Shown here piece after piece: positions 3,332 to 46,675 of a stretch of DNA of 64,000 nt. Source of the stretch: Desulfomicrobium sp. ZS1. Its GTDB lineage: Bacteria; Desulfobacterota; Desulfovibrionia; Desulfovibrionales; Desulfomicrobiaceae. The position numbers and the translations under genes were made by a program. Each line of letters starts with the position of its first letter. Positions within the stretch are counted from its first letter, which is position 1. The stretch is taken from assembly GCF_024204645.1 (NCBI RefSeq), contig NZ_CP100351.1, forward strand, positions 2,418,001-2,482,000. Direction: 5' to 3'. Below the pieces are notes generated by a model. The model did no database searches and was not told the origin of the DNA. It saw only the letters and a list, made by a program, of their open reading frames with translations.

Positions 3332-5311
3332 GTAGAGTAGGAAGCTGGCTCCACGTTTCTCCGTGACTTCGCTTGACGCCTCGCCGCACGCGGCTACTAC
3401 GTGTCAAACGGGTCATCCGTTTCGCCAGCCTCCCCTCATCAAACCGTGCATGCAGTTTTCCCGCACACGGCTTTCCGATGTTCTTCACTTCAAGGCATGC
3501 GCTTTCGTCCATCCGGCGGACGTGGGAACCTTGTACAGACCATACCGACTGTAGAGCACGTGGTTGGGATATTCGTGATACCCCTCATAGCGTGTCTGCC
3601 CATGCCTTTTGCACAGGTGTGTTCGTATCCGCTGCTCCACATGTGCTCGCACTTTTTCCAGGCACCGGCTGCAATTCCCATAGTGGAAGTAGTTCACCCA
3701 GCCCCGAAGGGTTGTGTTTACTCCTCCGACGACGGACTCCATATGCAGCACCGTTCGAGATCGTGATGTTAGCGCTGTGATTCGATCCTTAATCTTCTGT
3801 ATGGATTTTCTGGCAGGCTGCACGTGAGCGTACAGGCGACCTGTTCTTCCACTTTTTTCCATGCGAATTGCGTAACCAAGAAAGTCGAACTTTTCCGAAA
3901 TGGCGTCAACCACATGGGTCTTCGTTTCATTCAGAGTGAGTTCCAGCCGGGACAGAATAACGCGGATCGCTTGCATCGGCTGATCCGTTCCCTGCTTGCA
4001 CAGGACAACAAAGTCATCCGCATATCTGACCAGCAGGGCACCAAGTTTCCTGTGCAGACTGTTCCTCTCCCATACACGATCCAGAATATGGAGGTAAACA
4101 TTGGCCAAAAGCGGGGAGATTACTCCGCCTTGCGGAGTACCCTTCCGATTCTTCCGACCGCCGCCGATGTTTCTCCGTTTTCCATCCCCACCTTCCTCCA
4201 CCACCGGAGCCTTGAGCCACATCTGGACGAGATGCAAAACCTGCCCGTCCGCAATGCGACTGGCCACCAGCAGCATGAGTTTATCGTGAGGGATCGTATC
4301 AAAGTACTTGGATAAATCCGCATCTATAACTTGAGTATGCCCCGTGTTCAGCGCGTAGGTAATCGCGTCAACCGCCATATGCGCTGATTTCTTGGGTCGA
4401 AACCCGTAAGAGTGTTTGCAGAAGTCCGCTTCGAAGATCGGCTCGATGACCAGCTTCGCCGCCATTTGCACCACCCTGTCCCGAATGATGGGTATTCCCA
4501 GTGGACGCTTTGATCCGTCCGCCTTGGGAATCAGCACCCTTTTTACCGGGCTTGCACAATAGGTATGCGTGACAAGTAATTCCCTGATTTCCGCCAGAAA
4601 GGCGGCCCTTCCCATGGTGGCCTCGATGGACGCAAAGGTCACGCCGTCGATGCCGGCGCTGCCCTGGTTGGCCCGGACAAGTCTGTAGGCATGAGCGAGG
4701 ATGTCCGCCCGGCAGATCTTGTCGTACAAGGCGTAGAAGCGAAAGGCCGGTTCCTGTTTGGCCTTGAAGTACAGCTTCCTCTGAAACGTCCTGATCTTAT
4801 CCGGAGTTTGTAGCACGATGTGCAATCTCCTGATCCTCTGTTTTTCGGTTGCGTGAACAAAGCAGGGTCCCTTCCCTCGGGCCGGGTTATGTTGTCCCGA
4901 ACCCTCAAACGGTACTATGAACCCCTCCGACTCCCGCCAAAGCCCGCCGTGACTTCGGTCTCCCTTATACGCGGCGGTTGGCGCTCCTCAGGCGCCACTC
5001 GGGCGGGTCTCCGGCACTGGGTTGTCCATCTTCCGTTACATGCCGTCCCTGCTACCCCGGGAGATCATGCGAATCGCTCCTGTTATCATGATTCGCACAT
5101 ACCAGCCTTCCCCAACTGACCACAGGGTCGGCATCTCCATTTCAAGTTACGAGGCTACGCGTAGGTTCATTTGCATTACGGCCTGCAACTTCGCCAGTGG
5201 AGAACTTACGACCCCTGATTACTCAGACGCCGCTCTCCTGTACTACTGATCGAACAGGCAATTCATCAGTCGAGACTTCAACTCGATAGATGGACAACTG
5301 TTACCGCATAC
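3332..5311 (-). mobile_element. Group II intron (RNA plus maturase gene)
   Basis: The reverse transcriptase/maturase gene is followed on the minus strand by a clear domain V at about 3473-3441: AGCCGTGTGCGGG, an AAAA loop region, then CTGCATGCACGGTTT, with the AGC catalytic triad. Domain VI follows: GGGAGGCTGGC pairs with GCCAGCTTCC and the RNA ends in CTACTCTAC near 3332, the usual AY 3' end. The 5' end is less certain. GTATGCGG at 5311 leaves about 490 bases for domains I-III, which fits bacterial introns, and puts both ends exactly in a GGGGTCAG repeat; it departs at one base from the usual GTGYG. The stretch 4826-5311 holds no protein gene and is read as intron RNA. Confidence 0.8.
3485..4816 (-). 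CDS. ltrA: Group II intron reverse transcriptase/maturase
   Basis: About 443 residues. Reverse transcriptase blocks run in order: NQGSAGIDGVT, VKRVLIPKADGSKRPLGIP, HSYGFRPKKSAHMAV, VIDADLSKYFDTIPH, GTPQGGVISPLLANVYL and the active-site YADD near residue 265. A maturase (domain X) region with GWVNYFHYGNCSRCLEKVRAHV follows. There is no HNH endonuclease domain, as in many bacterial introns that use pre-existing nicks or replication forks. An AGGAG sits about 10 bases before a GTG at 4816, preferred here; a TTG at 4825 is too close to it. The protein splices its host RNA and copies it into DNA. The frame looks intact, so the intron may be active. Confidence 0.92.
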   Translation of the reverse strand: MLQTPDKIRTFQRKLYFKAKQEPAFRFYALYDKICRADILAHAYRLVRANQGSAGIDGVTFASIEATMGRAAFLAEIRELLVTHTYCASPVKRVLIPKADGSKRPLGIPIIRDRVVQMAAKLVIEPIFEADFCKHSYGFRPKKSAHMAVDAITYALNTGHTQVIDADLSKYFDTIPHDKLMLLVASRIADGQVLHLVQMWLKAPVVEEGGDGKRRNIGGGRKNRKGTPQGGVISPLLANVYLHILDRVWERNSLHRKLGALLVRYADDFVVLCKQGTDQPMQAIRVILSRLELTLNETKTHVVDAISEKFDFLGYAIRMEKSGRTGRLYAHVQPARKSIQKIKDRITALTSRSRTVLHMESVVGGVNTTLRGWVNYFHYGNCSRCLEKVRAHVEQRIRTHLCKRHGQTRYEGYHEYPNHVLYSRYGLYKVPTSAGWTKAHALK

Positions 5312-6224
5312 GGTCAGATCTTGATACTTGAATAATTTCGGAGTAACCTTTCCCCATGGTACGACCACTCCGCATAGAATTTCCGGGAGCCATCTATCAT
5401 GTGACATCCCGGGGCAACGCCCAGGCTTCCATTTTTCTGGACGACATCGACAGGAGCACCTTCCTCGCAGTCCTCGGACTGACGATGCGCCGCTTCAACG
5501 TGATCTGTCATGCGTATTGTCTGATGACCAACCACTTCCATCTGCTGCTTGAGACTCCAGACGCTAATCTGTCAAAGGCCATACGTCAGTTCAACAGCGT
5601 CTACACGCAGGCGTTCAACCGGCGGCACGGCCGGGTTGGTCACGTGCTGCAAGGGCGGTTCAAATCCATTGTCGTTGACCGGGACGCCTATCTTCTCGAA
5701 CTGTGCAGGTACATCGTCCTGAACCCGGTCAGGGCCGGGATGGTCAAGGATCCTGGCAAGTACCCGTGGTCCAGTTACCGGGCTACGGCAGGTCTCGGAA
5801 AGAAGCCGGATTTTCTGGCTGTGAACTGGATTCTGGAGCAATTCGGTGCTGATCGCGTCCAGGCCCGGAAAGAGTACCGTCTCTTTGTCAAGTCAGGCAT
5901 TGATGCGGGATCGCCCTGGAATGACCTCAAAGGACAATGCCTGCTCGGAGACGACCCGTTTCTGGAGAAACTCTTTCCCTTGCTCAAGGACAAAAGCGCC
6001 TTGAAGGAAATTCCTCGTGTGCAACGCTTTGCCGACCGACCAGCTCTGGATGATATTTTACATGGCATTCAAGACCGGACTCAACGTAACGCAGCCATCT
6101 TCAAGGCTTGCCAGGAGTATGGATATACCCAAGCGCAAATTGCCACTGCCACAGGACTGCACTATTCAACAGTGAGTAAAATCATCAAGAAAATTGGGTA
6201 ATTCAAGATTCAAGATCTGACCCC
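5312..6224 (+). mobile_element. REP-type Y1 transposase element with imperfect terminal inverted repeats
   Basis: The left end GGTCAGATCTTGATACTTGA (5312-5331) matches, inverted, the right end (6201-6224), which reads ATTCAAGATTCAAGATCTGA then CCCC. The two arms differ by a short insertion and by two missing G at the left, where the group II intron begins. The transposase stop codon touches the right repeat. Single-copy transposase genes of this MVRPLRIEFPGAIYHVTSRG type are, as I recall, commonly bounded by this GGGGTCAGATCTTGA motif in many genomes. Confidence 0.65.
5356..6201 (+). CDS. REP-associated (Y1/IS200-like) transposase
   Basis: A 281-residue protein opening with RPLRIEFPGAIYHVTSRGN, the first strand of the Y1 transposase fold. 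The HUH motif is HFH at residues 60-62 (MTNHFHLLLET); candidate nucleophile tyrosines are Y112 and Y119 in AYLLELCRYIVLNPVRAGMV. The C-terminal 80 residues end in a helix-turn-helix resembling DnaA domain IV or MerR (YTQAQIATATGLHYSTVSKIIKKIG). Y1 enzymes cut and join single-stranded DNA at hairpins. The ORF is intact and bounded by inverted repeats. Automatic pipelines sometimes mislabel this family as a toxin or RelE; the HUH motif argues against that. Confidence 0.88.
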   Translation: MVRPLRIEFPGAIYHVTSRGNAQASIFLDDIDRSTFLAVLGLTMRRFNVICHAYCLMTNHFHLLLETPDANLSKAIRQFNSVYTQAFNRRHGRVGHVLQGRFKSIVVDRDAYLLELCRYIVLNPVRAGMVKDPGKYPWSSYRATAGLGKKPDFLAVNWILEQFGADRVQARKEYRLFVKSGIDAGSPWNDLKGQCLLGDDPFLEKLFPLLKDKSALKEIPRVQRFADRPALDDILHGIQDRTQRNAAIFKACQEYGYTQAQIATATGLHYSTVSKIIKKIG

Positions 6225-8916: not shown

Positions 8917-10116
8917 TCACTTCGCCACACCCCAGACCGCATGCACAGGGTCGGAATGCTGGATCATGGGATAATAGCGATCCCGTGCGTCCATAGGCCG
9001 GGGCCAGCCGCGCTCCGAAAGGGTGGCCAAATCCTTGAAGAGCCCGCTCTCTCGAAAATATTCCGTGACCAGTCCAGTCCGCTCGAACTCGTGCAGCTCG
9101 GTCCAGATCCGCACGGCCTGATCCGGAAACCAGCGGTGCGAAAAAACCATGACGCAAAGCCCGCCGGGTTCGAGCACCCGCGCGATCTCGCGGAAAACCT
9201 CCAGAGGGCGGGCCAGATATTCCACAGACAGGCTGCATATCACGGCGTCGAAAGCGCGGTCCGCGAAAGGCAGGGCCGGGTCGGCGTTCAAGTCATGCAC
9301 CACGTGGGACGACAGGGCCGGATTCTCGCTCATCTCCTCCGCGTTCATGCCCAGGCCCGTGGCCGTAACACCTTCCGGCAGATGGGACTGCCAGCTGGCC
9401 ATGAGATCCAGGATGCGTTTTCTGCCCGGCAAAAGGCGCGAATAGACCTTGGCGATGTTTTCGCGCGCCTGGCTGTCCACATGGGCGACCTTGCGCGGCG
9501 TGGCGTAAAACACGGCGTCATTCATCCCAAGCGCCTTATCCAGGGGTGCGTCCAATCCAAAATTCGTGCCCTTCTTGTCCTTGCGCTTGAGACCAGGCCC
9601 ATCGGTCAGGGCGCAGATCCAGTCCTGGCATTGCCCGCCAAATTCCGCCGTCTTGGGCCAGACCGCGAGCGGAGCAATCTCGAGCCTGGCCTCAAGATCG
9701 GCCATGGGATGATTGAGATCAACGGTCAGCATGTCCTCGTCCATGTTGATGACGCGAAAAGGCTGAATGTTTTGCGGATAGATGCCGGGCACTCCGCGTA
9801 GCATTCCCTGGGGGTAAAAACGCCCCTGAATCGGGACAATACCCGGCTGATCGGCCGCAACCTTGAAGGCCTTACGCGGCACGGTCATGACTTTTCGCAT
9901 GTCGCGCACCGGCACATGCACGCCGGGTTCAAGCTCGACATGGCGGGACTCTCCCGCCTTCATTCCCAGAATCTCCTTCTCAAGCCCGGCAGGAAAAACA
10001 TCCCGCCACAGGTTCACGTTCTGGGCATAAAAACTGTCTTCGTGGCGCACCCCATGCTCTTCCCAGTGCAGGCGGAACAGGATGTTGGCCAGGGTATCGG
10101 TGGAAATGGCGGTCAT
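8917..10116 (-). CDS. Fusion of an FKBP/SlyD-like domain and a class I SAM methyltransferase
   Basis: A 399-residue protein. Residues about 10-170 track an FKBP of the SlyD type: FPAGLEKEILGMKAGESRHVEL, VPRKAF, then MLTVDLNHPMADLEARLEI, matching the NHPLAG strand of SlyD. Residues about 215-395 are a Methyltransf_11 domain: KRILDLMASWQSHLP (a variant of motif I that lacks the GxGxG glycines), FADRAFDAVICSLSVEYLARPLEVFREIARVLEPGG and MVFSHRWFP. It is presumably cytoplasmic, as no signal peptide is seen. The prolyl-isomerase half may hold a protein substrate for methylation, an inference. It is a lone gene convergent with the terminator at 8854. Confidence 0.8.
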   Translation of the reverse strand: MTAISTDTLANILFRLHWEEHGVRHEDSFYAQNVNLWRDVFPAGLEKEILGMKAGESRHVELEPGVHVPVRDMRKVMTVPRKAFKVAADQPGIVPIQGRFYPQGMLRGVPGIYPQNIQPFRVINMDEDMLTVDLNHPMADLEARLEIAPLAVWPKTAEFGGQCQDWICALTDGPGLKRKDKKGTNFGLDAPLDKALGMNDAVFYATPRKVAHVDSQARENIAKVYSRLLPGRKRILDLMASWQSHLPEGVTATGLGMNAEEMSENPALSSHVVHDLNADPALPFADRAFDAVICSLSVEYLARPLEVFREIARVLEPGGLCVMVFSHRWFPDQAVRIWTELHEFERTGLVTEYFRESGLFKDLATLSERGWPRPMDARDRYYPMIQHSDPVHAVWGVAK

Positions 10117-10210: not shown

Positions 10211-10240
10211 TAAAACAAGAAAGCGCCCCGAACGGAGCGC
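10211..10240 (-). terminator. Intrinsic terminator of the aminotransferase-ferredoxin unit
   Basis: On the minus strand GCGCTCC (10240-10234) pairs with GGGGCGC (10229-10223) around GTTC and runs into TTTCTTGTTTT. It lies 28 bases past the ferredoxin stop. Confidence 0.75.
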
Positions 10241-10267
10241 CCTTGGGTTGCTTGCTTACGTCAATCC

Positions 10268-10462
10268 CTATTCGATGATCTCGATGCAGTCGTCCGGGCA
10301 GTAGGCCACGACCTTGCGGGCCAGGTCTTCCTCGCAGGGGTTTTTGAGGATCACGGCCACATGCGCGGCCTCGTCATAGGCGAAAAACTCCGGGGCCAGC
10401 TCCACGCAGGCCAGACATCCGGAACAGCAGGGCTGGTTCAGAGCCACTTCCACCATGTTCAT
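10268..10462 (-). CDS. Small single-cluster [4Fe-4S] ferredoxin
   Basis: A 64-residue protein with PCCSGCLACVELAPEFFAYDE (CxxCxxC ligands within Cys12-Cys19) and a final VVAYCPDDCIEIIE that supplies the fourth ligand, the layout of monocluster [4Fe-4S] ferredoxins. It carries single electrons in the cytoplasm. Its ATG overlaps the stop of the aminotransferase by four bases (ATGA), so the two are translationally coupled. The partner reaction is not evident from sequence. Confidence 0.88.
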   Translation of the reverse strand: MNMVEVALNQPCCSGCLACVELAPEFFAYDEAAHVAVILKNPCEEDLARKVVAYCPDDCIEIIE

Positions 10463-11613
10463 TTGAGGCCTCCCAGATATTTTTCAAGCCGACGCATGCC
10501 TTCTTCGATGTTCTCGATGGAGTTGGCATAGGAAAAGCGGATGTAGCCCTCGCCTCCCGGCCCGAAATCCACTCCCGGCGCCACGCCGACTCCGGCCCTC
10601 TCAAGCAGGTCGAAAGTGAAGCGCATGGAATCGTTCGTGTATTTCTTGGCATTGGCGAATACGTAGAAGGCTCCCGTGGGCTCGACCTTGATGCCGAAGC
10701 CAAGCTCGCGCAGCCTGCCGATCATGTGCTTGCGGCGCTGGTCATAGATGGCCTTCATGCGTGTCACGTCCGGACCGGCCTGGGTTAGGGCGGCCACCCC
10801 GGCCCACTGGGCGATGGAGCTGGTGCACAGAAAAAAATTCTGCTGCATGGTCTGCAGGCGCTTCATATAGCCCTTGGGCGCGATGACATAGCCGAGCCGC
10901 CAGCCGGTCATGGCGTAGAGTTTGGAGAAGCCGTTGAAAACAAAACAGTTGTCCGTGAATTCAAGGGCGGTGTGCTCCTGCCCCTCATAGACAAGCCCGT
11001 GGTAGATCTCGTCGGAGAAGAGCGGCACGCCCAGCTCGGCCAGGCCGCAGTAGACCTCGGGGCTGACCAGGGTGCCCGTGGGGTTGGATGGCGAATTGAC
11101 CAGAATGCCGCGCACATCCTCGCCCATGCGCTCCTTGACCTGGTCCACGCGGAACTGGAATCCGTCCTCCTCGCGCACGGGCACAAAATCGGGCACCGCC
11201 CCGGCGAAGCGGATGAAATTGGGATAACAGGCATAGCTGGGGTCCGAGAGCAGCACCCGGTCGCCGGGCTGCAGCAGCAGCGAAAAGGCCAGCAGCATGG
11301 ACGGCGACGTGCCCGAGGTGACAAGCACCTGATCCGGATGGACCGCCACCCCGTACTTGGCATGATAGTTCGCGCAGATGGCCTCGCGCAGCTCGATGAT
11401 GCCCAGAGAATGGGTATATTGACAGCGACCGTCGCGGATGGCCTTGCAGGCGGCGTCCTTGACGCACTCGGGCGTGTCGAAGTCGGGCTCGCCGATCTGC
11501 AGATGCACGATATCCCGGCCCTCTTTCTCCAGCGCGCAGGCCCGCTCCAGCACGTCCATGACCTTGAAGGAACTTAAGCTCTGGCAGCATGGGTTGATGC
11601 GGCATTCATTCAT
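10459..11613 (-). CDS. Class I/II PLP-dependent aminotransferase
   Basis: A 384-residue fold-type I enzyme. The start at 11613 follows GAGGGGG; the open frame upstream (to 11784) has no ribosome site. Seen are HLQIGEPDFDTPE, SPSNPTG (substrate and PLP contacts, residues 174-180), FSDEIYHGLVY with the PLP-ring Asp, and the Schiff-base lysine Lys231 in VFNGFSKLYAMTGWRLGY. The length and motifs fit the aspartate/alanine aminotransferase group (AspC/DapL/AlaT-like); the amino acid partner cannot be named. Coupled by a four-base overlap to a ferredoxin gene. Confidence 0.9.
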   Translation of the reverse strand: MNECRINPCCQSLSSFKVMDVLERACALEKEGRDIVHLQIGEPDFDTPECVKDAACKAIRDGRCQYTHSLGIIELREAICANYHAKYGVAVHPDQVLVTSGTSPSMLLAFSLLLQPGDRVLLSDPSYACYPNFIRFAGAVPDFVPVREEDGFQFRVDQVKERMGEDVRGILVNSPSNPTGTLVSPEVYCGLAELGVPLFSDEIYHGLVYEGQEHTALEFTDNCFVFNGFSKLYAMTGWRLGYVIAPKGYMKRLQTMQQNFFLCTSSIAQWAGVAALTQAGPDVTRMKAIYDQRRKHMIGRLRELGFGIKVEPTGAFYVFANAKKYTNDSMRFTFDLLERAGVGVAPGVDFGPGGEGYIRFSYANSIENIEEGMRRLEKYLGGLK

Positions 11614-12034
11614 AAAAATCCCCCTCGCGATTCGTAATACGGGCGGCTTATACCGCTTCGCGGCAAAGCTCAAATTCTTCCATGCGCACCAAGGCGGCAA
11701 TCCTGTGGACGTGGTAATGATTTTTTCCAGTTTACCTCCACACCGGCCACAAGTATTTCCACTTTCCCGGCGTGTCCCGTCCACAAACTGCTACCTGATG
11801 GGACTGCGCGCCACAATCCGCCACGCCATATCTCGTCTTGCGTCATGGAAACGATCATATTATGGCTTCGCCACCTCGCGCCCGGCCACTGGGCGCCCAG
11901 GCAAATCACAACCATTCCATTCCATTTCCCGGCAACGTTCGACCACGCATGCAAAACGGTGAGTTCCCGCTCATCTGCGCCGCGCCCGGCGCGCTCTGCG
12001 AAGAACCCCTAAGAATTGGAATGAAGGAGATATC
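11614..12034. other. 421-base intergenic region, no gene seen
   Basis: The gap lies between the start of the minus-strand aminotransferase and the plus-strand ychF, so it must hold both promoters. I see no convincing gene, repeat or terminator. The ychF ribosome site GAAGGAG lies at about 12023-12029. Confidence 0.5.
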
Positions 12035-13291: not shown

Positions 13292-14044
13292 ATGAACATG
13301 CTTGAGAACATCGACGTCATTCTCTTCCGCCCCAAGTACCCCGAGAACATCGGCTCCGTGGCCAGGGCCTGCCTGAACATGGGCTGCGGCCAGATCGTGC
13401 TGGTGGATCCATGGAATTGGGACCAGGGCAAAGCCCTGCCACTGGCCACCCACCACGCGGGGCACCTCTTGGAGAACATCCGCATCCATGGGACCCTGGC
13501 CGAAGCTCTGGCGCCCTATTCCTTCGCCTACGGCACCACGGCCAGGACCGGCGGCTGGCGCCAGGGCATCCAGACGCCGGAGGAGGCCGCCCCGCGCATC
13601 GTCGAGCAGCGCAATGCCGGCGGCACGATCGCCATCGTCTTCGGCCCCGAGGACAAGGGGCTGACCAACGAGGAAACAGACCTCTGCAACCAGCTCCTGA
13701 CCATCCCCACCACCGACAACCTGACCTCGCTGAACCTGAGCCAGGCGGTCATGGTCGTGCTTTACGAGTGCTTCAAAAAATCCCTGGCCAAACCTTTCAA
13801 AGTGGCGGGCCAGCCCAAGGATCGCTACATCAACAGCGAGGAGCGGGAAGTCCTCTTCAACCAGCTGCGCGAAACCCTGATCGAAATCGACTTCCTCAAC
13901 AAGGACAACCCGGAATACTTCATGCTGCCGCTGAAGCGCTTCTTCAACCGCATCAACCCGCGCCTGAACGAATACAACCTGCTCATGGGCCTCTGCCGCC
14001 AGATGAGACGGATCGTGAACATCGCCAAAAACGACAGATCATAG
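13292..14044 (+). CDS. trmJ: TrmJ-like SPOUT tRNA/rRNA 2'-O-methyltransferase
   Basis: About 250 residues from the ATG at 13292 (a second ATG at 13298 is also possible; neither has a strong ribosome site, and the open frame to 13166 runs through the palindromic repeat). VILFRPKYPENIGSVARACLNMG is the conserved N-terminal motif of TrmH group 1. The knot region has IAIVFGPEDKGLTNEETDLC and IPTTDNLTSLNLSQAVMVVLYE, the SAM-binding trefoil motifs. E. coli TrmJ (about 246 residues) methylates the 2'-OH of tRNA position 32; that target is inferred by family. Confidence 0.88.
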   Translation: MNMLENIDVILFRPKYPENIGSVARACLNMGCGQIVLVDPWNWDQGKALPLATHHAGHLLENIRIHGTLAEALAPYSFAYGTTARTGGWRQGIQTPEEAAPRIVEQRNAGGTIAIVFGPEDKGLTNEETDLCNQLLTIPTTDNLTSLNLSQAVMVVLYECFKKSLAKPFKVAGQPKDRYINSEEREVLFNQLRETLIEIDFLNKDNPEYFMLPLKRFFNRINPRLNEYNLLMGLCRQMRRIVNIAKNDRS

Positions 14045-14215
14045 GGGCGGACCTACGTGTTCGCCCTTCTTCTTCGCGACGCATCGCCCATGACAGGGCG
14101 GGCGTGTACGGCAGGGCGGGCATGTACGGCAGGGCAGGCGTGTACGGCAGGGCGGGCATGTACGGCAGGGCGGACATGTACGGCAGGGCGGACACGCAGG
14201 TCCGCCCCTACGGTG
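14042..14215. repeat. REP-like array A with five 18-base tandem units
   Basis: The array opens with TAGGGGCGGACCTACGTGT at about 14042 and closes with its inverse ACACGCAGGTCCGCCCCTA. Between them lie five copies of an 18-base unit, consensus GGGCGGGCATGTACGGCA, that vary at G/A and C/T positions. The ends form a long hairpin typical of REP doublets (REPINs/BIMEs). The array starts at the stop codon of the TrmJ-like gene and ends just before the stop of the RayT-type transposase. Confidence 0.85.
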
Positions 14216-14217
14216 CA

Positions 14218-14910
14218 TCATATCATCCAATCCGCATCATCCGCCGGATGGCCAACCCCATACATGGCCGATATTTCCCGCAATCCCTGGTCCGGATGCA
14301 ACCGATCCATTTCCCATCGCACAGGATTGGTGGCGATATATTCCCGGATGCGATTCAATTCCGATTCGTCGCGTACGATGTGTTCCCAATAATTACGTTG
14401 CCATAACCGACCGAAAAACGGTTGCCATCCGTGTTGTTTCACGCTGCGAATATATTCATTGGTCGACATCGTTTTAAACCATTGCACCACACGACGTAGG
14501 GGCGAACCTACGTGTTCGCCCTCCCCAACGTGTTCGCCCATTTCCACCGAAACCACATGTTCGCCCATGTTTGGGCGGGCGTGTAAGGCAGGGCGGACAC
14601 GTAGGTCCGCCCCTACGGAATCATTATGCGGACAGGCGTGGCCGGTATTGATGACGATGAAATGGACATGGTTCGGCATGCACACCCAGGCGTCGCAGGC
14701 AATGTCATCAAATTTACGCATCAATTCATTATACCAACGATTCAACATCACACCCGCTTCGTTCAGTCGTATTTCCCCATCCAGCACATGGCCAAACAGG
14801 CACGACCGACCCTGCACGCATATGGTCACAAAATACGCACCAGACCGGGAATAATCATAATTCGGCAACCGAATGGAACGTCGACGATGGATTTTTGGAT
14901 TGCACGGCAT
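14218..14910 (-). CDS. rayT: RayT-type REP-associated tyrosine transposase carrying an internal REP array
   Basis: A 230-residue Y1 transposase. The N-terminus RRRSIRLPNYDYSRSGAYFVTICVQGR and the HUH motif HVH at residues 81-83 (MPNHVHFIV) are typical; the likely nucleophile is Tyr174 in QRNYWEHIVRDESEL, followed by IREYIATNPVRWE. RayT proteins cut REP hairpins and are thought to spread them. Residues about 98-140 (GADLRVRP, ALHARPNMGEHV, GEHVGSPLRR) are simply the translation of REP array B and have no place in the fold, yet the frame stays open. Arrays lie on both sides as well. Whether the enzyme remains active with this insertion is unknown. Confidence 0.87.
   Translation of the reverse strand: MPCNPKIHRRRSIRLPNYDYSRSGAYFVTICVQGRSCLFGHVLDGEIRLNEAGVMLNRWYNELMRKFDDIACDAWVCMPNHVHFIVINTGHACPHNDSVGADLRVRPALHARPNMGEHVVSVEMGEHVGEGEHVGSPLRRVVQWFKTMSTNEYIRSVKQHGWQPFFGRLWQRNYWEHIVRDESELNRIREYIATNPVRWEMDRLHPDQGLREISAMYGVGHPADDADWMI
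14491..14622. repeat. REP-like array B inside the RayT reading frame
   Basis: Left arm GTAGGGGCGAACCTACGTGT and right arm ACACGTAGGTCCGCCCCTAC enclose degraded copies of GTTCGCCC and GGGCGGGCGTGTA. The length is close to a multiple of three and no stop arises on the minus strand, so the transposase frame continues through it. Confidence 0.85.
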
Positions 14911-15036
14911 CAGTCCTCCAGGCAGGAATCATGACGCATCACGACAAATTCTGCCAGGGACAGGCTGACGCAACGGAAAAAAATACAGATACAACCGTAT
15001 CGCCGGCGGCCCGTTTATTCGTGGCGATGTGTAGGA

Positions 15037-15178
15037 AATGGGCAGGGCGGACACGTTGGGCAGACACGTTGGGCAGACACGCAGGTCCGCCCCTACGATC
15101 CATCACGCCGTAGGGGCGGACCTACGTGTCCGCCCTGCCCAACGTGTCCGCCCCCCCCTACGTACCCGCCCTGCCCCC
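15037..15178. repeat. REP-like array C overlapping the 3' end of the MocR gene
   Basis: Here the order of arms is reversed: GGGCAGACACGTTGGGCAGA and ACACGCAGGTCCGCCCCTAC come first, then after 15 bases GTAGGGGCGGACCTACGTGT and GTCCGCCCTGCCCAACGTGT. The stop codon and last six codons of the MocR regulator fall in this array. Confidence 0.85.
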
Positions 15179-16621
15179 CATCGCCATCCCCAGCCTCCTG
15201 ATCCCCTCTTCGATGACCTCCTCGCTGTTGGAGGCGAAATTGAGCCGCATGAACCCTTCGCCCTGGGCCGGATCGAGATGAAAATTTCCTCCCGGCGCGA
15301 AAATCACGCCTTCCTCGCAAGCATTGGGGAGCAGTTCCGAGGCCTTGATTCCTCCCGGCAAGCGCAGCCACACGAACAATCCGCCCTTGGGGCGCAGCCA
15401 GGAGCATTCCGAGGGCATATGCCGCTCCAGGGCCGCGAGCATGGCGTCCCGGCGACGTCGATAGAGGGTGCAGGAACGTTGCAGGTGGGCGGCATAGCGG
15501 CCCACGGACACGTAATCCTTGAGCGCCCGCTGGATCAGGTTGCAGGTGGCCAGGTCGTGACAGCGTTTGGAACGTAGCAGGTGGGCGTAGACCGGGCCGT
15601 CGGCGACCACGAAACCCACGCGCAGGCCGGGGATGAGCATCTTGGAAAAAGTGCTCATGTAGATGACCCGCCCATCCGGGTCGAGAGACTTGAGCGTGGG
15701 TTGGGCGTGTCCCTCGTAGCGGATATCGCCGACGTAATCGTCCTCCAGTACCGGCACGTCGAAGCGTCCGGCAAGGCTGAGGAGCTGTCTGCGGCGCTGC
15801 CCGCTGAGGCAGGCGCCCGTGGGGTTGTGAAAATTGGGGATGGTGTAGATGAGACCCGGCTTGTGGCGGCTTAAAATCCCTTCCAGCTCGTCCACGTCCA
15901 GGCCGTCCTCGTCCAGGCCCACGGTGTGAATGCGCAGGTTCCGGGAGCGGAACACGTCCAGGGCCCCGGCATAGGTCGGACGCTCCACGACCACGCTTGA
16001 TCCGGGAGGCAGGATCAGGCCGGCAACCAGGGAAAGGGCCTGCTGGGACCCGGCGGTGATGAGAATGTTGCCGGGCCCGGTCTGGATGCCCTGGCTGGCC
16101 AGAACCTGGGCCAGGGTGGCACGCAGGGGCCCGAATCCGGCGATCTCCCCGTACTCCACGGCCGCCGCCCCGTCCCGGCGCATGACCTGCCCCAAGAGCC
16201 TTCTGAACTCGTCCATGGGAAAAAGGCGCGGGTCGCAGGCCCCGCCGTCCAGGGCGATCCAGTCCGTCTGGCGGCTGACCTCCGGCAAATAGGCGTTCAT
16301 GGCCTCGAAACCGCCGTAACGCAGACGGTCCTGCCAGGCGGGCCACCCACCGGCGCGGGGAAAACCGCCGGTTTCGCCCGGCGCATGAGGCAGCACGTAA
16401 AAACCGCTGCCCTGCCGGGAAGTGATCAGCCCCTCGGCCAGAAGTTCGGCGTAGGCGCTCTCCACCGTGCCCCGGCTCACGCCCAGATTCGCGGCCAGGA
16501 CGCGGACCGCAGGCAGCCGGACCCCGGGCAGCAGGTTGTCGGACAAGATGCTGTGGCGGAAATGGCCACTGATCTGGGCGTAAACGGGCTCGGAGGAATC
16601 AGAATCCAGTGCCAGGCGCAT
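15158..16621 (-). CDS. MocR-type regulator: GntR winged helix fused to a PLP aminotransferase domain
   Basis: About 487 residues. The ATG at 16621 is preferred over one at 16636 because GGAGG, the ribosome site, lies between them. The N-terminal wHTH (YAQISGHFRHSILSDNLLPG, LPAVRVLAANLGVSRGTVESAY) is GntR-like. Residues about 110-480 are a fold-type I domain with LITAGSQQALSLVAG, IPNFHNPTGACLS, LEDDYVGDIRY and the PLP lysine in YMSTFSKMLIPGLRVGFV. MocR proteins sense an amino acid or PLP and switch a divergent transporter or enzyme, here the EamA gene at 16732. The last residues (GGRAGT) come from REP array C, so the original C-terminus was replaced or trimmed. Confidence 0.92.
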   Translation of the reverse strand: MRLALDSDSSEPVYAQISGHFRHSILSDNLLPGVRLPAVRVLAANLGVSRGTVESAYAELLAEGLITSRQGSGFYVLPHAPGETGGFPRAGGWPAWQDRLRYGGFEAMNAYLPEVSRQTDWIALDGGACDPRLFPMDEFRRLLGQVMRRDGAAAVEYGEIAGFGPLRATLAQVLASQGIQTGPGNILITAGSQQALSLVAGLILPPGSSVVVERPTYAGALDVFRSRNLRIHTVGLDEDGLDVDELEGILSRHKPGLIYTIPNFHNPTGACLSGQRRRQLLSLAGRFDVPVLEDDYVGDIRYEGHAQPTLKSLDPDGRVIYMSTFSKMLIPGLRVGFVVADGPVYAHLLRSKRCHDLATCNLIQRALKDYVSVGRYAAHLQRSCTLYRRRRDAMLAALERHMPSECSWLRPKGGLFVWLRLPGGIKASELLPNACEEGVIFAPGGNFHLDPAQGEGFMRLNFASNSEEVIEEGIRRLGMAMGGRAGT

Positions 16622-21968: not shown

Positions 21969-22394
21969 ATGACACTTGTAGCTGGAACCAAAGTACTGGT
22001 TCATTACACGGGCACGCTCGACGACGGCACCCAGTTCGACTCCTCCCGGGAACGTGACCCCCTGGAAATCACTCTTGGCCAAGATATGGTCATCCCCGGC
22101 TTTGAAAAAGCCATCGTCGACCTTGAGCCCGGCCAGAGCGTGACCGTGACCATCCCGGAGGAAGAGGCCTACGGCCCGCACAATGAAGAAATGGTCATCC
22201 GCGTCCCCAAGGCGTCCTTCCCCCCGGAAATTGTCCCCACCGTCGGAGAACAGCTTGTGCTGCGCTCCCCCGACGGCAACGAACTCCCGGCCCTCATCGT
22301 CGATGTCGATGACGACGAGGCGACCCTGGACGCCAACCACCCCCTGGCCGGATTCGCCCTGACCTTTGAGATCGAACTGATCAGCGTCGGCTGA
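21969..22394 (+). CDS. SlyD-like FKBP-type peptidyl-prolyl isomerase
   Basis: A 141-residue protein: VLVHYTGTLDDGTQFDSS, PLEITLGQDMVIPGFEKAIVDLEPG (FKBP core), EEEAYGPHNEEMVIRVPKASFP (start of the inserted IF chaperone flap) and LDANHPLAGFALTFEIELISVG, the end of the FKBP fold. It lacks the histidine/cysteine-rich metal tail of E. coli SlyD. It catalyses proline cis-trans isomerisation and acts as a chaperone in the cytoplasm. AGGAAGC precedes the start. Compare the FKBP half of the fusion protein at 8917. Confidence 0.94.
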   Translation: MTLVAGTKVLVHYTGTLDDGTQFDSSRERDPLEITLGQDMVIPGFEKAIVDLEPGQSVTVTIPEEEAYGPHNEEMVIRVPKASFPPEIVPTVGEQLVLRSPDGNELPALIVDVDDDEATLDANHPLAGFALTFEIELISVG

Positions 22395-44622: not shown

Positions 44623-45316
44623 ATTTTTTCTTTTTGTTAAAATTAAGATATTGTAAAAATATGCCGCAAAATACAGATCCTTGGAAACCAAAATTCACAT
44701 GACCCAGGCCAAGAAAAAATCACAAAAAAAACATCACGTCGCAGTCCGAACTGTTTGTGCGAAATGACACGCACTGCCGCTCGTTTCAAGCTAAAAATCA
44801 CATTTTGAACAGCCGCTGAATCAAATTTCGACTCATGACAAAATTTCGTGGTGTCCCATGCGCCGCGCTTCAAACCCGAACACAGCCAGCAGTTTGGCTG
44901 GACGCATCATCCCGAGCACCGCCAAAACGGAGCCTGGCCTCTCACGTTGAAACAGCCTTGAATCCGAAGCGTGCGACACAAAATGTAAAAGTCAAAAAAA
45001 TCATTGAGATCTGCAAAATATCATTACAAATTCGAGCCAACAATGCAATCCATATAATCAGATTAACGCCCTCCCTTTATGGACTGCACGGACCGCATTT
45101 CAAACATGACTCAGCAAGCAACGCGCATACAAAACGCGCAAAAACCAAAATTGGCAGCGTTTTACAACTGAACAAGAATTGCAAGTGAATGTCTCGCGCA
45201 GTACACGAAGACGGCCCCGCAATAAATCGAACGCCACATGCCCGTCAGGGGCCTCCTCTGGCTGATTGGTTTGCAAGCGCACAATTTCAAGACCCGGCTG
45301 CAAAGGAAAACCGTTT
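44623..45316. other. AT-rich gene-poor region, 694 bases
   Basis: Between the PilZ gene and the photolyase the sequence is richer in A and T than the window average. It holds no open frame with a ribosome site, strong hairpin or repeat that I could find. It must contain the promoter of the PilZ gene and of the photolyase, whose ribosome site AAAGGAAAA starts at 45302. Confidence 0.5.
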
Positions 45317-46675
45317 ATGAACCCACGTCGCGTGAACATGTTGCGAAACACCCCGTTAGGCCAGGGTCCGGTGCTGTATTGGATGCACCGGGATTTTCGG
45401 GCCGCCGACAACTGGGGGTTGACCTATGCCCGATTGCAGGCGCTCAAAAACAAGCAGCCTGTGGCGGTGATCTTTTGTCTGGCTCCGGACTTTGCGGAGG
45501 CCACTGCGGTTCATTTCAATTTTCTGCTCGATGGACTGACAAAAACGGCTCAAGCGCTCAGGCAGCAGAACATTCCCTTTTTCGCCCTGTCCGGCATTCC
45601 TGGCCTTGAAGTCGCGAAATTCGCCCGCACGCACAAGGCCAGTCTTGTCGTCACCGATTTCGACCCGCTGCGCGTCAAGATGCACTGGCACAAGGACCTG
45701 CTTTCGGCCTGCAAACAAGCCGTGCATGAAGTCGATTCGCGCAACATCGTGCCCGCGCGGGTGGTCTCGGATCGGCGCGAGTTCATGGCGCGGACCCTTC
45801 GCCCCAAAATCAAGCGCCTGCTGGTCGAATTTCTGGATGAATTCCCCGTTCTGCCCATGCATCCGCATCCATGGCCGACAACGGTCTCGGCGCCTGACTT
45901 TACCGCCCTGCGGCACAAAATCCGCGATGACGGCAGACGCCAGGCGCTGTGTGTCGAACCCGGCGAACAACCTGCCCGCGACCTGCTCCGTCATTTCCTG
46001 CAAAACAAACTGCCCGTCTACGCGAACCGCAACGATCCCAACCAGGATGTCTGTTCGAATCTTTCCGCCCACCTGCATTTCGGCATGCTCTCCGCCCAAC
46101 GCGCGGCGCTTGAAACACAGTCATGCGGGCTGGCCGGAGAAAATGTCGACTCCTTCCTGGACGAGCTCATTGTCCGCCGTGAACTCTCAGACAATTTCTG
46201 CCTCCACACCCCAGGCTACGACACCGAAGAGGGCTTCCCCGCCTGGGCCAAGGAGAGCCTGCACAAACACCGGAACGATCCCCGCCCCGTCATCTACTCT
46301 CCGGAGGAATTGGAAGCGGCCAGGACCCACGACCCGCTCTGGAACGCGGCCCAGACCCAGATGCTTCGCAGCGGCAGGATGCACGGCTATCTGCGCATGT
46401 ACTGGGCCAAAAAAATCCTGGAGTGGTCTTTGTCCGCAGCCGACGCGCTGCGCGCGGCCATCCGCCTCAACGACCGCTACAGCCTCGATGGCCGGGACAG
46501 CAACGGATACACAGGCATTGCCTGGTCCATCGGCGGGGTGCATGACCGTGGCTGGACCGAACGGCCGATTTTCGGCAAGATCAGGTTCATGAATCTTGCG
46601 GGGGCGCGTCGAAAATTCGACGTGGACCGTTTCGTAAGGTCCTGGATTGCGCCCCAGGATGATGCCTCAATCTGA
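45317..46675 (+). CDS. phr: Class II (eukaryote-type) deoxyribodipyrimidine photolyase
   Basis: A 452-residue flavoprotein starting at the ATG after AAAGGAAAA. The N-terminal domain (VLYWMHRDFRAADNWGLTYA) is followed by the class II core: LHFGMLSAQRAAL, SFLDELIVRRELSDNFC, WAKESLHKHRNDPRPVIYS, RMYWAKKILEW and the end signature LNDRYSLDGRDSNGYTGIAWSIGGVHDRGWTERPIFGKIRFMN. It repairs cyclobutane pyrimidine dimers with blue light through FADH-. The length and motifs fit a complete enzyme. It is probably a single-gene unit; the tamA gene begins 16 bases past its stop, so read-through is possible. Confidence 0.95.
   Translation: MNPRRVNMLRNTPLGQGPVLYWMHRDFRAADNWGLTYARLQALKNKQPVAVIFCLAPDFAEATAVHFNFLLDGLTKTAQALRQQNIPFFALSGIPGLEVAKFARTHKASLVVTDFDPLRVKMHWHKDLLSACKQAVHEVDSRNIVPARVVSDRREFMARTLRPKIKRLLVEFLDEFPVLPMHPHPWPTTVSAPDFTALRHKIRDDGRRQALCVEPGEQPARDLLRHFLQNKLPVYANRNDPNQDVCSNLSAHLHFGMLSAQRAALETQSCGLAGENVDSFLDELIVRRELSDNFCLHTPGYDTEEGFPAWAKESLHKHRNDPRPVIYSPEELEAARTHDPLWNAAQTQMLRSGRMHGYLRMYWAKKILEWSLSAADALRAAIRLNDRYSLDGRDSNGYTGIAWSIGGVHDRGWTERPIFGKIRFMNLAGARRKFDVDRFVRSWIAPQDDASI

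Follow-up and report, generated by a model that had tools for sequence, protein, structure and literature searches.

The locus

The window analyzed here is a stretch of 64,000 nucleotides from the genome of Desulfomicrobium sp. ZS1, which consists of a single contig of 3.87 Mb. Its minus strand carries a single open ATG frame for a protein of 399 residues, to which homologues align from end to end, and in which a SlyD-like domain is joined through a linker to a class I methyltransferase domain. The gene, its parts and two further features of the window are as follows.

8917 to 10116, minus strand: gene for the SlyD-like and class I methyltransferase fusion protein, 399 residues
9637 to 10107, minus strand: SlyD-type FKBP domain with insert-in-flap part, residues about 4-160
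9700 to 9714, minus strand: NHPMA motif, residues 135-139
9544 to 9636, minus strand: inter-domain linker, residues about 161-191
8923 to 9543, minus strand: class I methyltransferase domain, residues 192-398
9376 to 9414, minus strand: non-canonical motif I, ILDLMASWQSHLP, residues 235-247
9334 to 9357, minus strand: GLGMNAEE at the end of strand 2, residues 254-261, with Gly at the usual acidic position
10220 to 10243, minus strand: weak terminator-like hairpin 3' of the upstream ferredoxin gene
45266 to 46675, plus strand: class II photolyase gene, not adjacent to the fused gene

Upstream of the fused gene, on the same strand, are a small ferredoxin gene (10268-10462), about 150 bases off, and an aminotransferase gene (10459-11784); genes for a DUF5320 protein and a NifU-like protein are convergent with it, and the fused gene has no obvious operon partner at this locus. 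The hairpin between it and the ferredoxin gene, if a terminator, would give the fused gene its own transcription unit; this is weak evidence, because the consensus scan that placed it found three terminator-like sites between 8700 and 10500 against 2.1 expected. The photolyase gene scores just under the cut-off of the TIGR00591 (phr2) model (E 1.1e-158, 529.4 bits, cut-off 550.05) and above that of Pfam DNA_photolyase. It lies 35 kb from the fused gene, and the DUF1722 gene of the same genome lies 1.8 Mb from it; the genome thus holds all three genes unlinked, and neither RudS nor photolyase adjoins the fused gene in the window.

A SlyD-type fold with an altered pocket

The first-pass annotation, made from the DNA sequence alone, had recognized a SlyD core and the NHPMA strand in the N-terminal half of the protein, and both are borne out by profile and model comparisons. 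Matches from the single sequence are weak: Pfam FKBP_C gives 12.0 bits for the whole protein and 14.0 for the domain alone, under the gathering score of 21.1, and the Thermus SlyD structure 4odm is found at E 0.002. A profile built from 49 N-terminal domains of fused proteins matches the same structure at E 3.1e-13, the 16-kDa FKBP 4dt4 (SlpA) at 9.6e-10 and E. coli SlyD 8g01 at 3.1e-8. The AlphaFold2 model of all 399 residues has a mean pLDDT of 89.6 and a pTM of 0.90, with its lowest confidence in the linker (block mean 59 at residues 171-180), and a Foldseek search with it returns methyltransferases together with SlyD and SlpA, the latter two from E 8.5e-9 (SlyD 3cgm). The N-terminal half is therefore predicted to fold as an FKBP with an insert-in-flap part. 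The first three positions of the NHPMA motif are also well conserved across the fused domains (N 46/49, H 46/49, P 49/49).

The prolyl-isomerase pocket of SlyD-type FKBPs includes the residues Tyr, Asp and Tyr. We aligned the 49 fused domains with the canonical SlyD of the same genome and with three further SlyD-like proteins (L098-L100), encoded in related genomes, and this set of residues is not kept across the fused domains. The two tyrosine positions hold Tyr in none of the 49 domains (one having a gap there) and in one, respectively, and thus something else in 49/49 and 48/49; Asp occupies the third position in 8/49, a soft count because the alignment of the first strands is gappy. The canonical SlyD-like gene lies in the same window (21969-22391; FKBP_C 71.4 bits), has complete pocket motifs and provides the fused domain with a natural control. 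The domain is thus like SlyD and SlpA in its fold, its NHP motif and the order of its parts, and unlike them in lacking the pocket tyrosines, in carrying a conserved GR-x-YP stretch and in having a methyltransferase behind it.

These observations bear directly on the proposal of the first-pass annotation that an active prolyl isomerase or chaperone has been fused to a protein methyltransferase. The FKBP fold with its insert-in-flap part speaks for such an enzyme; the missing tyrosines, and a canonical SlyD encoded in the same window, speak against it, and we regard it as very improbable. On sequence grounds isomerase activity in the fused domain is unlikely because both tyrosines are missing, the fold and the NHP motif being kept, which makes the term prolyl-isomerase domain doubtful. 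We think it quite probable that the SlyD-like domain has a binding role other than isomerization. That it holds a protein substrate, as first suggested, is possible; RNA or a partner protein would fit equally well. The protein would then offer a naturally occurring FKBP fold that seems stripped of its isomerase residues and turned into a binding module.

The methyltransferase domain and its conserved, non-canonical motifs

The assignment of the C-terminal half to Methyltransf_11 is secure, at 45.1 bits against a cut-off of 21.2 (E 1.6e-11). Structural comparison with VIA-align, covering mainly residues 188-399, places it in the Rossmann-like methyltransferase fold, with Z between 13.9 and 15.9 among the best 50 rows. 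A Trm112-partner methyltransferase was considered and set aside: the Haloferax Hvo_0019 complex (6f5z) tops the VIA-align list, but most of the best 50 rows (Z 15.9-13.9) are tied within 1, so that no weight can be placed on this match.

Residue counts were taken from 112 methyltransferase domains of the family, of which 58 are fused to a SlyD-like domain, 30 carry a zinc ribbon and 24 stand alone. Not one of the 112 has GxGxG in the motif I region. In its place, ILDLMASWQSHLP contains D237 (111/112), M239 (111/112), S244 (110/112, Thr in the other two) and H245 (111/112). The end of strand 2, where class I methyltransferases usually have an acidic residue that binds ribose, has no such acid in most of the family: position 256 is Gly in 107 domains, Asp in four and Thr in one, and it is followed by N258 and E261, each in 107/112. 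Conservation extends to N265 (111/112) and to N277, Y300, R328 and W338 (112/112 each). In comparison with Methyltransf_11 class I enzymes, the fused protein shares the fold, the Pfam score and the LPF...FDAV region; it differs in lacking GxGxG, in having Gly for the strand-2 acid and in its conserved S-H-L-P and D-L-N. The motif I that had been called degenerate is indeed non-canonical and without GxGxG, but near-invariant D237, S244 and H245 do not fit the word degenerate.

The absence of the glycines extends to standalone bacterial and archaeal relatives and, judged from the alignment, is probably older than the fusion; as a trait of the whole family it says nothing special about the fusion itself. 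The four domains with Asp at position 256 (L153-L156) are standalone, have the same D-L-M...S-H motif and form the deepest group in the midpoint-rooted tree, a position that hints at, but does not prove, a later loss of the acid that still preceded the fusion.

Without the strand-2 acid, the domain may fail to bind SAM. If the altered motif I and the absent acid abolish binding, the protein would be a pseudo-methyltransferase acting as a scaffold or sensor, as the complete lack of GxGxG and the Gly in 107/112 domains might lead one to expect; one fused homologue (L128) lacks even D-L-M and S-H. A scaffold would scarcely need such strict conservation of D237, S244, H245, N265, N277, Y300, R328 and W338, which vary little or not at all among the 112 sequences from bacteria and archaea, however, and because four standalone relatives pair the strand-2 Asp with the D-L-M...S-H motif, a changed pocket is indicated rather than decay. 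We therefore hold a pseudo-methyltransferase to be unlikely, if worth serious thought, and somewhat favor an active enzyme of the SAM type. The domain would represent a distinct class I family, in which D-L-M-x-x-W-x-S-H-L-P and G-L-G-x-N-x-x-E stand where other enzymes have GxGxG and the ribose-binding acid; most probably it has kept the capacity to bind SAM, or a near analogue, and to transfer a group from this cofactor. Such a pocket probes the extent to which a class I methyltransferase can depart from motif I.

The homologue L128 (5036-6187 of its sequence), whose branch in the tree is very long, no longer has the D-L-M...S-H motif and is perhaps a degenerate or re-purposed copy.

Distribution and history of the fusion

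The first-pass annotation had allowed that the fusion might be unique to this genome through misassembly. This is ruled out by homologues that align end to end in many genomes and fall into one group of the tree. A scan of genome contigs yielded 28 distinct fused loci, 27 with an intact frame (the exception being L025), and the nearest public relatives, at 87% identity, come from Desulfomicrobium MAGs. The fused form occurs in at least 30 of 395 genomes of the source phylum, the source genome counted, and at least 37 match in the methyltransferase part only, at E 1.5e-64 or better; these counts are lower bounds, because at most four candidates were scored per genome. The 30 include two genomes in which the gene is split over two frames (G006 and G166) and one that matches only from profile position 32 (G186). 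Fused homologues are spread across the Desulfobacterota; outside it, two genomes of a second bacterial phylum and a single archaeal MAG have one. In the phylum of L026, 8/398 genomes match the methyltransferase profile at E 1e-25, two of them with a SlyD-like domain, and in the archaeal phylum of L030 the figures are 8/196 and one, the genomes of both loci being counted; contamination is possible for these two loci, because both come from MAGs.

Relatives that lack the SlyD-like domain fall into two kinds. Among the 37 non-fused genome loci, 30 have a C-terminal Cys4 zinc ribbon extension and seven do not. The zinc-ribbon type resembles the fused type in its neighboring position in the tree and in having the same kinds of gene neighbor, and differs in that the C-terminal ribbon replaces the N-terminal SlyD-like domain. 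The ribbon matches Pfam Ogr_Delta below the cut-off (E 0.0028), and the model of this type has a pLDDT of 89.9; the ribbon is left without a structural class, because the best 50 Foldseek rows are all methyltransferase-fold entries. Plasmids provide 15 further records, which match in the methyltransferase part only, over 41-56% of the query. These standalone relatives (Deinococcus, Methylobacterium, Haloarcula) belong to the same family, with the same motifs and 38-46% identity over the matched part; unlike the fused form they consist of the methyltransferase part alone, and no photolyase or RudS match was found in the flanks of four such loci.

In a tree of 112 rows, built without L025 and L164, the 58 fused rows make up one side of a single branch (SH-aLRT 92), and the zinc-ribbon rows form a starred neighboring group that includes one standalone row. 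Read from this tree, the simplest history would be a single ancient fusion, after which the two-domain enzyme would have been kept across the Desulfobacterota. One enzyme family thus has two different add-on domains in neighboring lineages.

A mobile or phage origin was also rejected: 50,697 phage records contain no match, and IMG/VR gave one partial, weak match (residues 77-132, 31%). Our literature search, conducted mostly without subscription journals, found no description of the fusion or of a link between this methyltransferase family and RudS; as far as that search reached, the family and its SlyD fusion are apparently an undescribed variant.

Three fused copies are frame-broken: L058 and L059 (in G006 and G166) and L025. 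Each break falls at a short homopolymer run, within the linker or adjacent to it, and leaves the two domains in separate frames; the breaks may reflect sequencing error, mutation, tolerated fission or something regulated.

Gene neighborhoods

Families of neighboring genes were defined by clustering the neighbor proteins, and their representatives were named by Pfam and NCBIfam. The recurrent kinds are a class II photolyase (TIGR00591, under the strict cut-off), a DUF523+DUF1722 protein (the RudS architecture), an NAD-binding/NmrA-like reductase and a PNPOx-like protein, PPOX-A; a fifth, which has no Pfam or NCBIfam match at 1e-5, is named PPOX-B here. These module genes were sought in flanks of mostly up to about 5 kb at 113 loci, 59 having the SlyD-like domain and 54 lacking it; two loci were entered twice (L016 as L101, L030 as L164). 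The queries were single sequences from L010, L015 and L026, which are themselves among the 113, and distant module neighbors are missed because of such searches. RudS-like neighbors occur at nine fused and eight non-fused loci, L010-like photolyases at five and six, L026-like photolyases at three and none, the reductase at six and three, PPOX-A at five and 16 and PPOX-B at seven and four. Both RudS domains were confirmed by Pfam for L010 and L026; the match of L017 is weak (E 3e-10). At least one module gene is present at 39/113 loci and two or more kinds at 14/113; the searched flanks of the other 74 contain none. None was found in the flanks of standalone relatives, nor at fused loci L150 and L030, two of the three outside the Desulfobacterota. 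In the zinc-ribbon architecture (L061-L097), the methyltransferase gene at several loci immediately follows a PPOX-A gene of the same orientation.

For comparison we used 40 hand-placed stretches of 11 kb from 32 of the 67 genomes that have the family, and excluded the query loci L010, L015 and L026 from the tested set. Any module gene is found at 30/66 loci against 0/40 control stretches, and photolyase or RudS at 15/66 against 0/40 (Fisher P 4e-4); the reductase by itself, at 4/66, does not differ significantly from the controls (P 0.15). The signal is stronger in the zinc-ribbon and standalone group (20/37) than in the fused group (10/29).

The fused locus richest in such neighbors is L026, from a gammaproteobacterium of the Arenicellales. 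A cyclopropane-synthase-like (CFA-like) gene, a photolyase and a MerR regulator, the latter two on the minus strand, are followed in a row by a glutathione peroxidase-like gene, RudS and the fused gene; three bases separate the end of RudS (4913) from the first ATG of the fused frame (4917). The regulator is closest to CarH, under the cut-off of that model. At L122 a photolyase gene lies upstream and a CrtD-like gene (below cut-off) downstream.

Co-occurrence across genomes

The link to photolyase and RudS, which the first-pass annotation had not anticipated, is also seen genome-wide in the 395 genomes, searched at E 0.001 with DUF1722 taken as RudS and kinship handled at the family level only. 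Photolyase (PF00875) is present in 99 genomes, in 92 of them over the cut-off, and DUF1722 in 192. Genomes with the fused type have photolyase in 24/30 cases against 75/365 of the others (P 6e-11), and DUF1722 in 27/30 against 165/365 (P 9e-7). Within the six families that have at least two fused genomes, mixed families f63 and f91 with one each being left out, the photolyase link persists at 19/22 against 8/35 (permutation P 5e-5, reached in 0 of 20,000 shuffles). Two of the photolyase matches (G053 and G321) are under the Pfam cut-off, and without them the counts are 22/30 overall and 17/22 within families. The zinc-ribbon and standalone group has DUF1722 in 32/37 genomes and shows no genome-wide enrichment of photolyase (10/37, P 0.45). 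The photolyase and DUF1722 links are not independent, because the two co-occur in 84 of the 99 photolyase genomes.

Proposed model for the function of the fused enzyme

According to the main text of PMC11417400, RudS removes the sulfur of 4-thiouridine from tRNA and lowers the growth delay caused by UVA, and its genes frequently belong to light-responsive operons. The L026 cluster, with photolyase, RudS and a CarH-like regulator together, resembles these operons; the main text of that paper names no methyltransferase of the fused kind, the word appearing twice, both times in its reference list. We propose that the enzyme is part of a stress module with photolyase, RudS, the NAD-binding reductase and the PPOX-like proteins, and that this module would act in the response to light or near-UV damage. 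Because several families have the methyltransferase gene next to RudS and photolyase, the enzyme most likely serves the same stress, and we consider its link to light or near-UV likely.

The same neighborhoods can be read differently, as shared stress regulation only, with an ordinary small-molecule or lipid methyltransferase whose SlyD-like domain aids folding or solubility. The solved sequence relatives include MitM and phosphatidylethanolamine methyltransferase, standalone relatives manage without an extra domain, and the L026 cluster includes a cyclopropane-synthase-like gene, all of which would suit such an enzyme. Two neighboring lineages each retain a different extra domain, however, which suggests binding of a substrate or partner, and we find the small-molecule reading rather unlikely.

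In the reading that we prefer, to which as a whole we give a probability of about 0.45, the protein is a light or near-UV stress methyltransferase whose SlyD-type domain, most likely no isomerase, would hold a macromolecular substrate or partner beside the methyltransferase. Counting against this reading are the 74/113 loci whose searched flanks contain no module gene, among them the standalone relatives and the fused loci L150 and L030, the separation of the three genes in the genome of the window, the missing photolyase enrichment in the zinc-ribbon and standalone group, and the altered strand 2. Domain identities, the single branch of fused proteins, residue conservation, recurrent neighbors and genome co-occurrence are computed results; catalysis, substrate binding by the SlyD-like domain and the light or UV function are inferred. 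Candidate substrates may be tRNA, protein or a small molecule. This would give the methyltransferase family a testable role in light or near-UV stress and in the metabolism of tRNA s4U. A more speculative extension, and a long shot, is that the family has a new cofactor pocket, with Ser-His and Asn instead of the Gly loop and the ribose acid, and works together with RudS, on tRNA or the released sulfur, as the second step of a near-UV tRNA response, a repurposed SlyD fold and the zinc ribbon being interchangeable substrate binders.

Other features of the window

GC-rich repeats of 18 nt, tandem and inverted, fill about 1.1 kb at positions 14035-15191; they overlap a frame (14218-14910) that has no Pfam match at 1e-5 and that we take to be transposase-like. 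A group II intron (3332-5279) contains a reverse transcriptase/maturase gene (3485-4825, minus strand) and is adjoined by an IS200-like transposase gene (5356-6201, plus strand).
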